A stretch of DNA of 35,527 nucleotides from Methylococcaceae bacterium. GTDB lineage: Bacteria; Pseudomonadota; Gammaproteobacteria; Methylococcales; Methylomonadaceae. Positions 15,229-19,944 of this stretch are shown in pieces (the stretch's first letter is position 1; the number at the start of each line of letters is the position of its first letter). Both the position numbers and the translations under genes were made by a program. Location: positions 1 through 35,527 of the forward strand of contig DAOUTG010000020.1 in the NCBI GenBank assembly GCA_030626845.1, written 5' to 3'. Under the pieces are notes generated by a model. That model was not told where the DNA came from. It made no database searches and worked only from the letters and a program-made list of their open reading frames with translations.

Positions 15229-15624
15229 ATGAACAACGTCATCGAATCCCCTTTTCACCCAGGTGAGAAAAAAGTCCAAGCCCGTTTAGGGGGCAGTGAA
15301 AAAATGGAACGATTTGGACGGCAGGTCATTCGTGATTATATGCCAGAACAACATCAACAGTTTTTTACACAATTACCCTTTGTATTGGTTGCTCATGCAG
15401 ATGATTCAGGATTTCCGTGGGCCTCTATTTTATTTAATCAGCCACCTTTTATGAGTTCAGCTCATAATCAACATTTATTGATTAATGCCAAGCCCGTCGA
15501 AGGAGACCCTCTAGCGAAGAGTTTACACACAGGAAGACGTTTAGGTTTATTAGGGATTGAATTAGAAACACGGCGTAGAAATCGTTTATCGGCTTATATC
15601 AACCAAGTTTCAGCACAAGGCTAA
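15229..15624 (+). CDS. Pyridoxamine-phosphate-oxidase-like (FMN-binding split barrel) protein, probably truncated
   Basis: A 131-residue ORF matching the N-terminal part of a family annotated as pyridoxamine 5'-phosphate oxidase-like, FAD- or ferredoxin-linked oxidoreductases. Recognisable segments are ESPFHPGEKKVQARLG, GRQVIRDYMPEQHQQFF, LPFVLVAHADDSGFPWASIL and GLLGIELETRRRNRLSAYIN. Homologues continue well past this point (about 300 to 700 residues), whereas here the frame stops after SAQG and no continuation is seen before narI. It is either a truncated gene or an unusually short version. A GAGGT ribosome site precedes the ATG. It may once have belonged to the sigma-54-controlled group upstream. 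Confidence 0.65.
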   Translation: MNNVIESPFHPGEKKVQARLGGSEKMERFGRQVIRDYMPEQHQQFFTQLPFVLVAHADDSGFPWASILFNQPPFMSSAHNQHLLINAKPVEGDPLAKSLHTGRRLGLLGIELETRRRNRLSAYINQVSAQG

Positions 15625-15656
15625 GTGACCACCCACGTGTTTTAATGGCACTTTAA

Positions 15657-15682
15657 GGAGTACAAAACATGTTTTGTACTCC
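15657..15682. terminator. 26-bp perfect palindrome between converging genes
   Basis: GGAGTACAAAACA is followed at once by its exact complement. It lies 32 bp after the truncated oxidoreductase-like ORF and 11 bp after the narI stop on the other strand. There is no long T-run on either side, so it is a possible bidirectional terminator, but a protein-binding site cannot be excluded. Confidence 0.5.
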
Positions 15683-15693
15683 AATAATTGTGA

Positions 15694-16383
15694 TTAACGA
15701 TAGCGGACATATTTACTGCGTACAATTTGATAAGGGCGCATTAAATAACCGAAAGGTACACTCCAGACATGAACTAAGCGGGTAAAAGGGAATAAGAAAA
15801 ATACGCTCATTCCTAAGAATAAATGTAATTTATATAAAAAACCCACTTCCGCTAATAATCCAGAATCTGCTTGTAGAGTGACAACACTTTGCGCCCAGTC
15901 GGCTAATGAAACCATGGCTGAAGCATCACCACTCACCGCATGATAAAACGAAACGGGAATAGTTAATAAACCAACGCCTAAAGTCACCAATAACCAATCA
16001 AGAATAAAAATATCCATAAAATGACTGTTAGCTCTAACTCTAGAGTTATTCATTCTGCGTCTCCACAAAATAACCCCGCCCATCATACAAACTGAGCCAA
16101 AAACTGAGCCTGCAATAATGGCTACATATTGGTGTGCCATATCAGAAATACCCAAGCCTAAAAACCATGAATGCGGGGTTAATAGACCCGCAGCATGACC
16201 CATAAATAAAGCTAAGATGCCAATATGGAATAAAATACTCCCTTTGCGTAACTGTTCTTTTTCAAAAAGCTGACTGGAGTCGGCTTTCCATGTATATTGT
16301 TCACGGTCAAAACGTATTAAACTACCCACCAAGAAAGTAGTTAAAGCAATATACGGATAGAGGCTAAAAAGTAATTTTTCCAT
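15694..16383 (-). CDS. narI: Respiratory nitrate reductase gamma subunit NarI
   Basis: Membrane diheme cytochrome b subunit that oxidises quinol and passes electrons to NarH. The 229 residues match E. coli NarI (225). Five hydrophobic helices are visible, and the family segments IALTTFLVGSLIRFDREQYTWKA-like N-terminus, HIGILALFMGHAAGLL (heme His), YKLHLFLGMSVFFLFPFTRLVH (second pair of His) are present. It lies 8 bp after narJ in the same operon. A palindrome follows its stop. Because narG is not in the operon, the complex depends on a catalytic subunit encoded elsewhere, if one exists. Confidence 0.95.
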   Translation of the reverse strand: MEKLLFSLYPYIALTTFLVGSLIRFDREQYTWKADSSQLFEKEQLRKGSILFHIGILALFMGHAAGLLTPHSWFLGLGISDMAHQYVAIIAGSVFGSVCMMGGVILWRRRMNNSRVRANSHFMDIFILDWLLVTLGVGLLTIPVSFYHAVSGDASAMVSLADWAQSVVTLQADSGLLAEVGFLYKLHLFLGMSVFFLFPFTRLVHVWSVPFGYLMRPYQIVRSKYVRYR

Positions 16384-16391
16384 GCGTGTTC

Positions 16392-16916
16392 CTAGGCTGC
16401 AATATTAACAAGACGACCGTGACGCTGTACTACTCTGAGCAGTGGGGCATACGGACTGTTTATTTTTTCAAGGTTTTTGGCAATGGTGTCAGAAACATGC
16501 GCACTTTGTTGTAAAAACAAACGGACATCCGTTTCTGTTGTCAAAGTAGACACATATTCAAGTACCAGTGGTAAATAATCGGGTAATTCACCTTCAGATA
16601 TTTCAAAGCCCTCGGCCTTATAATATTCGGATAAATCAACTAAAGCAGGTCCTCGTTCGCGGTCTTGCTCTGCAAACAAATGATGGGTTAAATAGAGTGC
16701 GTTGTCAGGGGTGAAATCAAAGGTATTGACATAATGCGCTTGATATTCAGTCAGTGATAAATCACCAGCCCAGTCCATGAAGTCTAATAAGGCTTGCTGA
16801 TCTTCTTGACTGGTTAATTCTAAGATTGGAATTAATTGTCTAATTTCATCCCAATGCTCACGTAACTCAGGCTTAGGGTATTCCAATAATAACGACAATA
16901 TTTTATAAACTTGCAT
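16392..16916 (-). CDS. narJ: Nitrate reductase molybdenum cofactor assembly chaperone NarJ
   Basis: Cytoplasmic chaperone that holds NarG for cofactor insertion and is not part of the final enzyme. Diagnostic parts are LLEYPKPELREHWDEI near the N-terminus and FDFTPDNALYLTHHLFAEQD in the middle, followed by the GELPDYLPLVLEYVSTL segment. At 174 residues it is shorter than E. coli NarJ (about 236), mainly at the C-terminus, which is common in other bacteria. Its start ATG shares one base with the narH stop. Retention of an intact NarG-specific chaperone hints that a narG gene still exists elsewhere in this genome. Confidence 0.93.
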   Translation of the reverse strand: MQVYKILSLLLEYPKPELREHWDEIRQLIPILELTSQEDQQALLDFMDWAGDLSLTEYQAHYVNTFDFTPDNALYLTHHLFAEQDRERGPALVDLSEYYKAEGFEISEGELPDYLPLVLEYVSTLTTETDVRLFLQQSAHVSDTIAKNLEKINSPYAPLLRVVQRHGRLVNIAA

Positions 16917-18487
16917 TAAACTGGCTCACTATTTGACGTTTTTGCCGCAGGTTGCCAAGGTTTAAATTCCATGACATGTTCCATTTTCTTGCGTTTTTCA
17001 GGAAATAAAGAGGCATTTGGACTAATACTACAGCCTTCATTACCAAAACTAAAACCATTTTGTCCTTGAAAAGCATAAGGGTCTTCTTGATGTAATTCTT
17101 CATGACTGGTTGGAATGACAAAACGATCTTCATAATTAGCAATGGCCATATAACGATACATTTCTTTAACTTGAGCCTCACTTAACCCTACTTCTTCCAA
17201 AACAGCTAAATCAGTTTTACCTTCGACATTAAGTGAACGAAAATAACTACGCATCGCAATCATACGTTTTAAGGCTAAAACTACGGGTTCTTCTTTACCC
17301 GCAGTGAGCATATTAGCAAGGTATTTAATCGGTAAGCGTAAAGTTTCAAGTTTTGGAATGACCCCATCAGGTGTGGTTTCTAAATTACCCTGGTCAATTT
17401 GTGATTGCACTGGTGATAGTGGGGGGACATACCAAACCATTGGCATGGTACGAAATTCAGGATGCAAAGGAAAGGCGACTTTCCATTCAACGACCATTTT
17501 ATAAATAGGCGAATTTCTTGCAGCTTCCATCCAAGACTCAGGAATACCGTCTTCTTTTGCTTGCTTAATAACTTCTGGATCATTAGGGTCTAAGAAAATA
17601 TCTAACTGCGCTTGATATAAATCCTGCGTATCGTCCATTGAGGCTAACTCAGAAATACGATCAGCATCATAAAGCATTATTCCATTATAACGAATCCGAC
17701 CTACACAGGTTTCAGAACAAACAGTGGGCAGACCTGATTCAACACGAGGGTAGCAGCCTGTACATTTTTCAGCTTTTCCTGATTCCCAGTTATAAAAAAC
17801 TTTTTTATAGGGACAATTACTAATACACATCCGCCAACTACGGCATTTATCTTGATCGACTAATACGATACCATCTTCTTCCCGTTTATACATGGCACCC
17901 GATGGACAAGAGGCAACACAAGAAGGGTTAATACAATGATTACACATGCGGGGTAAAAATAGGTGGAATGAGTTTTCAAACTCCGCATACACTTGTTTTT
18001 CCATATCATTAAAATTAGTATCTTTACCGCGTTTTTCAAATTCACCTGCTAACCCATCTTCCCAATTAGGTCCCCAAGCGATTTTCTCCATTTGACTACC
18101 ATCTAACAACGAATAAGGACGTGCCGTAGGTGTCGCTTCAACAAGCGGACTATTTTGAAGATGTGCATAATTATAAGTAAAGGGTTCGTAATAATCATCA
18201 ATTAATGGCATGTCAGGGTTCATGAAGATATTACGCAATCTTTGGCGACGACTTCCTGATTTTAATTCCAATTTACCGTCATTCATCGTCCAGCCACCAT
18301 TCCACTGTGCTTGATCTTCCCAGTTTTTCGGGTAACCAATCCCAGGTTTAGATTCAACGTTATTAAACCAGGCGTATTCCATCCCTTTACGGTTCGTCCA
18401 AACGTTTTTACAGCTTACAGAACAGGTGTGGCAGCCAATACACTTGTCCAGATTAAATACCAACGAAAAATTTGCTCTTACTTTCAT
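16916..18487 (-). CDS. narH: Respiratory nitrate reductase beta subunit NarH
   Basis: Iron-sulfur electron-transfer subunit between NarI hemes and the NarG molybdenum site. All four cluster motifs are intact: LDKCIGCHTCSVSCKNVW (N-terminal), CNHCINPSCVASCP, the CRSWRMCISNCP motif with Trp for the 3Fe-4S cluster, and KCTGCYPRVE/CSETCVGRIRY. The 523-residue length fits the family (E. coli 512). A GAGGTG ribosome site precedes the ATG, and a TATAAT box 37 bp upstream suggests that narH is now the first gene of its operon. The usual first gene, narG, is absent. The next gene upstream (18583-19944) is an unrelated efflux protein. Confidence 0.96.
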   Translation of the reverse strand: MKVRANFSLVFNLDKCIGCHTCSVSCKNVWTNRKGMEYAWFNNVESKPGIGYPKNWEDQAQWNGGWTMNDGKLELKSGSRRQRLRNIFMNPDMPLIDDYYEPFTYNYAHLQNSPLVEATPTARPYSLLDGSQMEKIAWGPNWEDGLAGEFEKRGKDTNFNDMEKQVYAEFENSFHLFLPRMCNHCINPSCVASCPSGAMYKREEDGIVLVDQDKCRSWRMCISNCPYKKVFYNWESGKAEKCTGCYPRVESGLPTVCSETCVGRIRYNGIMLYDADRISELASMDDTQDLYQAQLDIFLDPNDPEVIKQAKEDGIPESWMEAARNSPIYKMVVEWKVAFPLHPEFRTMPMVWYVPPLSPVQSQIDQGNLETTPDGVIPKLETLRLPIKYLANMLTAGKEEPVVLALKRMIAMRSYFRSLNVEGKTDLAVLEEVGLSEAQVKEMYRYMAIANYEDRFVIPTSHEELHQEDPYAFQGQNGFSFGNEGCSISPNASLFPEKRKKMEHVMEFKPWQPAAKTSNSEPV

Positions 18488-18523
18488 GCTTTTAACACCT
18501 CGTGTTTAAAGGGAATATGCCTC

Positions 18524-18578
18524 ATTATATAACGTGTTGAACCCTTGTGATGAGAATTTATTCATTGATAGAGATGAT
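18524..18578 (-). promoter_or_regulatory. Putative narHJI promoter region with a weak FNR-like half site
   Basis: On the minus strand TATAAT (complement of 18524-18529) lies 37 bp before the narH ATG, without a convincing -35. Read on the plus strand, TTGAT-AGAG-ATGAT at 18565-18578 has one perfect FNR half site and one poor one. Its centre would be near -54, not the usual -41.5. Only the -10 box is reasonably supported. Confidence 0.35.
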
Positions 18579-18582
18579 TTTT

Positions 18583-19944
18583 TTACATTGTATTGTTACT
18601 CGATAGAAATGACGCGGATAAAGCGCGATATAAGGCGATGTGATATTCAAGTAATTGTCGTTGAGCGCGTAATTTATCACGTTCTAAACTTTGATAACTT
18701 AAGGTGATAGATAAGACCCGTAAAAAACTTTCAGCCCCATTCATATAGCGTAACCTAATTTGTTCAGTTGCTTGTTTGGATAGGTATAATTGTCGTTCTA
18801 AACTTGCCACTAATTGTTGTTGTTGCTGTTGTTGAATCAGTGCATCTTCGGTTTCTTGTACCGCTTTTAATAAACGCTCTGCATAATTATTTAACGCCGC
18901 CTTTGCTAACGCTTGATTACGTTCAACTTCTGCAACACGACGATGCCCATCAATAATGGGAAGTATCAAATTACCTGCTAAGGTTGCCAGCCAGTTATTA
19001 AATAATGATTGTAAATTAGGGGCAGAAGTATCAATGCCTGCAGAAAGACTAATTTTAGGAAAACGGTCAGCAATAGCCGCTGCAACCCGTTGATCGGCCG
19101 CTTGAACTTCAAAATAAGCTTTGCGTAAATCAGGGCGGAGTTGAATTAAATCCGTGGTTAATCCTGTTGCAGGTAAGAGAGGAATCATAGGAAATTTATT
19201 ATTAGCAGGAATTTGAAACGTTGTTGTCGTTTTACCTAATAATACGGCTAATTGATGTTCTAAAACTTTAATGGTTGCCAATACCGTGGTTTTATTTCCC
19301 TTGGAACTTTCTAAGAGTTGCTGTTGTTGAAAGACATCGGCTGCCGTTGCTTGCGCCCCTCTAAAACGTAATTCTAAAATTTCATAGTGGTTATAATTGG
19401 TCGTAATTTGTTGTTCTAAGAGAATGAGTTGTTGACGTTGTTCAATTAAACGATACCAAGTATTAGTAATTTCAGCACTCAGTGAAATTGCAGCGGCTTG
19501 AAAATCTTCGGTTAGTGCGTGAAAGTCTAATTCTGAGGCATGTAAATTTGCCCGAACCCGTCCCCATAAATCTACTTCGTAACTGGCAATAAGACCTAAA
19601 CTAAAACCACTAGTGCTTAAAGTATCAGTCATGTTACGTGAGCCATTAAAATTAGCATCAAGGCTTGGAGTTAAAGCTGCTCCGCTCTTTTTAGCAATGG
19701 CTCTTGCTTGTTCTACTCGATTAAATGCAGAACGTAGAGAGAAATTATTGCTAAGGGCTTGTTCAATTAAATAGTTGAGTTCAGCGTCATTAAAAACTTG
19801 CCACCATTTTTGTGTCAGGGGGGTTGCGCCTGTTCTTGAAAATACTTTGGGGAGTTCGACGGGTAGGGGAACTTGTTTAACCTCAACAGAACAAGAAGTA
19901 ATAACTAAAAAGAAAAAGAAGGTGAATAAAAGAGAGTGGCGCAT
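18583..19944 (-). CDS. RND-type efflux outer-membrane lipoprotein (NodT/OprM family)
   Basis: TolC-like outer-membrane channel of a tripartite efflux pump, 453 residues. The signal peptide ends in a lipobox (VITSC, Cys18), so the mature protein is lipid-anchored. Family features are WWQVFNDAELNYLIEQAL, NFSLRSAFNRVEQARAIAKK, YEVDLWGRVRANL, LIQLRPDLRKAYFEVQAADQ-like and GAESFLRVL segments, in two repeats with long coiled coils. No membrane-fusion or RND pump gene is adjacent, which is unusual for this class. It sits between yrfG and narH, where narG would be expected. No ribosome site is obvious before the ATG at 19944. Confidence 0.9.
   Translation of the reverse strand: MRHSLLFTFFFFLVITSCSVEVKQVPLPVELPKVFSRTGATPLTQKWWQVFNDAELNYLIEQALSNNFSLRSAFNRVEQARAIAKKSGAALTPSLDANFNGSRNMTDTLSTSGFSLGLIASYEVDLWGRVRANLHASELDFHALTEDFQAAAISLSAEITNTWYRLIEQRQQLILLEQQITTNYNHYEILELRFRGAQATAADVFQQQQLLESSKGNKTTVLATIKVLEHQLAVLLGKTTTTFQIPANNKFPMIPLLPATGLTTDLIQLRPDLRKAYFEVQAADQRVAAAIADRFPKISLSAGIDTSAPNLQSLFNNWLATLAGNLILPIIDGHRRVAEVERNQALAKAALNNYAERLLKAVQETEDALIQQQQQQQLVASLERQLYLSKQATEQIRLRYMNGAESFLRVLSITLSYQSLERDKLRAQRQLLEYHIALYRALSASFLSSNNTM

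Follow-up and report, generated by a model that had tools for sequence, protein, structure and literature searches.

The genus analyzed here very probably has a single NarGHI nitrate reductase of the ordinary kind whose subunits come from two unlinked transcription units, the operon being broken between narG and narH. Complete narH, narJ, and narI genes lie together in the window, i.e., the whole 35,527-nucleotide stretch of Methylococcaceae DNA that was analyzed, and an intact narG lies on another contig of the same genome. This reading draws on complete gene sets, a split that recurs in three genomes of the genus, purifying selection, and a conserved narH leader. All four proteins of the window's genome score above equivalog cut-offs, and NarG and NarH align nearly full length with those of Escherichia coli nitrate reductase A (narGHJI; PDB 1q16). 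In E. coli, narG is the first gene of the operon, whereas in the window's genus it forms a separate locus: NarGHI itself is ordinary here, but the layout of its genes is unusual.

Two nar loci in one genome

The window's own genome (G000) comprises 2.51 Mb in 116 contigs and is 96% complete. The identities of NarH, NarJ, NarI, and NarG were scored against NCBIfam equivalog cut-offs, which are given below in brackets.

Window, 15694..16383, minus strand: narI, cytochrome b gamma subunit, complete, 229 aa; TIGR00351 236 bits (cut-off 106)
Window, 16392..16916, minus strand: narJ, NarG chaperone, complete, 174 aa; TIGR00684 108.5 bits (cut-off 59)
Window, 16916..18487, minus strand: narH, nitrate reductase beta (Fe-S) subunit, complete, 523 aa; TIGR01660 860 bits (cut-off 524)
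Window, 18493..18506, minus strand: AACACGAGGTGTTA leader, a small inverted repeat with Shine-Dalgarno-like GAGGTG, conserved in the genus
Window, 18524..18529, minus strand: TATAAT, -10-like box of a putative narHJI promoter, inside the conserved string CGTTATATAAT
Window, 18583..19944, minus strand: NodT-type outer-membrane efflux lipoprotein gene, directly upstream of narH; OEP and outer_NodT matches on the G234 copy
G000:C70:2746-6522, minus strand: narG, intact, 1258 aa; TIGR01580 1969 bits (cut-off 1084)
G000, end of contig C108 (L005:9717-11963): second PF00384 protein, a formate dehydrogenase/PhsA-like molybdoprotein

In the window, the three genes occupy 15694-18487(-), 15.7 and 17.0 kb from its two ends, and no narG adjoins them. 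A preliminary description made from the sequence alone had called all three complete, with every NarH cluster cysteine in place and only 95 bp between narH and an outer-membrane lipoprotein gene, and these statements hold. Each gene is whole and above its equivalog cut-off, and the gap to the NodT-type neighbor, so labeled because the G234 homologue of the window lipoprotein scores above the TIGR01845 cut-off, is 95 bp. E. coli NarH (1q16_B) can be aligned with the window NarH across residues 1-498. Four groups of Fe-S ligands are present (C16/19/22/26, C182/185/190/194, C215/W218/C221/C225, and C242/245/257/261), a division into clusters that we take as given; these positions are invariant in all eight aligned NarH, including that of the window, and also align with 1q16_B.

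The same description saw no narG trace, which is correct for the window but not for the genome. A PF00384 search of the whole genome, of the kind it had proposed, returned two proteins, an intact NarG on contig C70 and one other molybdoprotein. Residues 1-1230 of the 1258 in NarG align with E. coli NarG (1q16_A), and so do STHGVNCTGGCSW and a second 31-residue segment, in which the HxxxC-type FS0 site and the Mo-ligand Asp are found; the roles of these motifs are presumably those of E. coli NarG. The models for the NarI membrane cytochrome b and the NarJ chaperone are likewise both above cut-off in this genome. This narG stands alone on a different contig from narHJI, 2.7 kb from a contig end, and narH, narJ, and narI were not found in the 20 kb read around it. 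It is flanked by an Rpn/YhgA-like gene 89 bp upstream and by an ORF without a Pfam match downstream. The Rpn label reflects PF04754 scoring barely above cut-off on the G234 copy, with TIGR01784 below cut-off on the G000 copy.

Distribution of the split layout

To place this layout, the models for narG and narH were run against 237 family genomes, with fragments counted, and genes were called adjacent when their model matches lay on one strand at most 931 bp apart. Traces of both genes were detected in 71 genomes, of which 67 showed adjacency, three a split (G000, G234, and G236, all of the window's genus), and one (G144) a non-adjacent pair in which narG and narH are both short fragments. Comparison with relatives, also proposed in the preliminary description, thus gave the same split in two further genomes of the genus, and narG is absent directly upstream of narH in 3/3 genus genomes that have both genes. 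In G236, assembled in 5 contigs, a single 2.97 Mb contig carries both narHJI and narG in the same orientation, with about 64 kb separating the narI end from the narG start, and this is the only genome that gives a physical distance. In G234 the two loci fall on separate contigs (68.7 and 37.3 kb), in each case at least 11 kb from the nearest contig end.

The genus has six members, and only the three above show the split directly. By model search, none of narG, narH, and narI was found in G235 (94% complete), narG but neither narH nor narI in G232 (83% complete), and narH and narI but not narG in G233 (73% complete). Beyond the family, a class-wide sample of 274 genomes included 45 with both genes, 41 of them adjacent; the other four are G000 itself and G237, G336, and G430, whose narG matches are incomplete and for which contig breaks may be the cause of non-adjacency. 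Among the best 80 of at least 588 NarH relatives in named genomes, a scan that may omit near records, 77 loci carry narG directly upstream and the remaining three have <350 bp of upstream sequence, too little to judge. Within the genomes searched, the split layout is clear only in one genus. The preliminary description had named, as evidence that would refute it, a narHJI layout common across the family with narG fixed at another place; this is borne out only in part, for the genus has the layout in common and the family beyond it does not.

Candidate signals for separate expression

All four genus genomes with narH share CGTTATATAAT and CACGAGG unchanged ahead of that gene, across two upstream gene contexts (G233 differs), and the sequence farther upstream is poorly conserved. 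The leader AACACGAGGTGTTA is exact in three of the four members and has two changes in the fourth. In the window's genome, a single site combines the -10-like box and CACGAG at the allowed spacing, and AACACGAGGTGTTA has one exact copy and four copies with one mismatch. The TATAAT box with ATCACA at 16 bp gives 10/12 hexamer matches. Consensus promoter scans returned no excess over shuffles at either locus, with 4 promoter-like sites in window positions 15500-18800 against a shuffle mean of 9.1, and 26 in the narG region against 30.0 expected, so that the argument for a narHJI promoter is one of conservation only. The TATAAT box had originally been offered as a sign of independent transcription; as a hexamer match it is meaningless against shuffles, but its conservation in relatives upholds the suggestion, and an independent promoter for narHJI is supported at the level of sequence comparison.

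For narG, AAGGAG ahead of the ATG provides its own ribosome-binding site, and a terminator-like hairpin and T-run follow the stop codon. At narG, the leader GATAAACGCCAACAAGGAGACAAATTA is shared without change by G000, G236, and G234, but G232 differs. The analysis identified no promoter for narG. Since the Rpn-like gene ends only 85-159 bp before narG in the genus genomes, co-transcription of narG by read-through from that gene is possible.

Selection and alternative explanations

Within the genus, dN/dS was 0.044-0.047 for narG (3 pairs), 0.031-0.042 for narH (4 pairs), 0.046-0.052 for narI (4 pairs), and 0.065-0.083 for narJ (3 pairs), ratios that are rough at dS values of 0.8-1.4. By this measure all four genes are clearly constrained, and the low ratios indicate strong purifying selection on narG and narH. 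Four sister pairs with contiguous clusters gave 0.026-0.032 for narG and 0.013-0.029 for narH. Because these are lower, with the genus values for both genes at about 1.5 times theirs, narG and narH may be slightly relaxed in the split lineage. For narI and narJ, the genus ratios resemble the values from the single sister pair used for these genes (0.053 and 0.067).

These values bear on whether the split marks a nitrate reductase that is being lost, which we regard as improbable. Slightly raised narG and narH ratios would fit such a decay, as would the genomes in which the models found no narG, narH, or narI (G235) or narG only (G232). Against it, G000, G234, and G236 each retain intact copies of all four genes, at dN/dS of 0.03-0.08, and narI and narJ resemble the sister pair. 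An artifact, with narG and narHJI truly adjacent and parted by the assembler, is barely credible: the window's genome is indeed fragmented and its narG lies near a contig end, but narHJI sits deep within the window with the NodT gene directly upstream, the NodT-narH junction recurs in G236 and G234, and the Rpn-like neighbor of narG is the same in four genomes. G236, with both loci on one contig, also counts against misassembly unless it repeats the same error, and so does G234, whose two loci lie far from the ends of their contigs.

The preliminary description had left two options, that narG had moved elsewhere or that NarHI now serves another catalytic partner, and had leaned toward the former. 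Under the latter, NarHI would pass electrons to or from a different molybdoenzyme and narG would be a bystander. The search for an orphan catalytic subunit did yield one candidate, the PF00384 protein on C108, and G232, where narG was found and narH and narI were not, suggests that narG and narHI are not always together. However, the C108 protein scores best with the formate dehydrogenase alpha (295 bits) and PhsA (287 bits) models, both below cut-off, and reaches 50 bits with the NarG model, whose cut-off is 1084. An intact NarG is present in the genome, NarJ, its chaperone, remains beside NarHI, and NarG and NarH of the split genomes have similarly low dN/dS and the same sister. A partner switch is thus very unlikely, and relocation of narG, seen in the intact C70 copy and in the same split in G234 and G236, is the option that survives. 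The C108 frame itself runs off the contig end, and by eye its last residues resemble the start of an AMP-binding (acyl-CoA synthetase-like) domain.

For a single NarGHI enzyme encoded at two sites, narHJI, preceded by its conserved promoter-like box and leader, would be transcribed as a unit of its own, and narG as a separate unit elsewhere, behind the Rpn/YhgA-like nuclease gene. Following transcription from those sites, NarG from the distant gene would most likely be folded and loaded with help from the NarJ encoded at the narHJI locus, and by analogy with E. coli it would then join NarH on NarI in the membrane. We infer that the complex so assembled would carry out quinol-driven nitrate reduction in this genus, in which the split is apparently stable and working.

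Host and implications

By pmoA, the genus is methanotrophic: the gene was found in three of the six assemblies (G233, G235, and G236), and TIGR03080 did not find it in the G000, G232, and G234 assemblies, where assembly gaps may explain this. The persistence of operons for membrane complexes is commonly put down to a need for subunits in a fixed ratio and to their assembly near the site of synthesis. A genus in which the largest, cofactor-bearing subunit comes from an unlinked gene under strong selection is a natural test of this idea. Operon-based annotation or surveys could also miscall these methanotrophs as having an incomplete nitrate reductase or an orphan NarH. No report of a narG/narHJI split was found in the literature at the level of titles and the opening lines of abstracts, and one may nevertheless have been published; a passage of PMC4466248 describes a cloning construct.

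Origin of the split and possible exchange of narG

All 10 sister-genus loci read have narG, narH, narJ, and narI in succession, with narG and narH within 15 bp of each other once starts are set right, and Ifr-MOX-184 (L094) has narK, narG, and narHJI in one row with 141 bp between narG and narH, whereas narG and narH are unlinked in the window's genus. The contiguous clusters of the sister genera and of Ifr-MOX-184 encode the same NarG and NarH type as the window's genus, at 80-90% identity. A NarK/NarU-like gene lies upstream in 8/10 sister loci (all but G192 and G198 of genus g24), its NarK models matching below their cut-offs; downstream, a hemerythrin gene (cluster c5) occurs in seven and a nirK-cluster gene in four, cluster identities resting on one or two copies identified per cluster. 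In one sister locus (G156, L080:15374-19054), narJ appears interrupted, as by an inserted element: two narJ-like frames, of 123 and 119 aa, are separated by ~3 kb that holds a pair of ORFs on the opposite strand.

Each locus of the split genus has its own neighborhood. The Rpn-like gene precedes narG in 4/4 genus genomes with narG (72-83% identity), and the NodT gene precedes narH in three of the four with narH (G000, G236, and G234; 74-79% identity), DUF4389 and DUF2333 genes taking its place in G233. G232 has a NarK-like gene immediately past its Rpn-like gene, and in G236 an MFS gene (c14) lies downstream of narI, where genus g15 has it behind the whole cluster (67-69% identity). Both genes would fit as traces of the old cluster, and because they remain at these loci, the arrangement is consistent with a formerly contiguous cluster that may have broken between narG and narH.

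In phylogenies, the split genomes fall beside Ifr-MOX-184 in both the NarG tree (95/90) and the NarH tree (99/100). The 12 kb Ifr-MOX-184 contig, with its contiguous nar cluster, has 58% GC, against 36% in the window. G232 is an ordinary genus member by OpdA (84% to G000), and its narG (L070:1098-4868) is g18-like at a site matching that of the stand-alone narG of the genus, with the Rpn-like gene and clusters c13 and c18 on one side, c11 on the other, and a DUF4160/DUF2442 pair between. The NarG encoded there shares 87-88% identity with genus g18 and 81-82.5% with the three split genomes. A single clade for the four genus NarGs was rejected at p-AU 1.5e-9 in a set with Ifr-MOX-184 and without the long-branched G185, and was not rejected (p-AU 0.20) in an earlier set without Ifr-MOX-184, so the outcome depends on the sequence set used. 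A mosaic G232 NarG was considered and rejected: 90 informative columns divide into 66 g18-like, 14 genus-like, and 10 other, spread along the gene with no clear breakpoint.

Because G232 carries the narG of another lineage at the corresponding site, with narH and narI undetected, a separated narG may be exchangeable on its own. The NarK-like protein of G232 likewise has its closest matches in g18 and one g24 genome (86-88%), and for this reason more than narG may have been exchanged; alternatively, G232 may keep the older copy, and either lineage may be the one that changed. A broader proposal, which we hold only tentatively and consider rather unlikely, is that the split made narG an exchangeable module, its site held by at least two lineages (Ifr-MOX-like in G000, G236, and G234; g18-like in G232) independently of narHJI, with NarG dose regulated apart from its electron-transfer partners.

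The searches also recovered a second, divergent narG/narH pair beside the standard one in G185 (G185:C68:2211-7351; 1470 and 655 bits), and low-scoring pairs similar to it occur in G293, G346, and G430 of the class sample.
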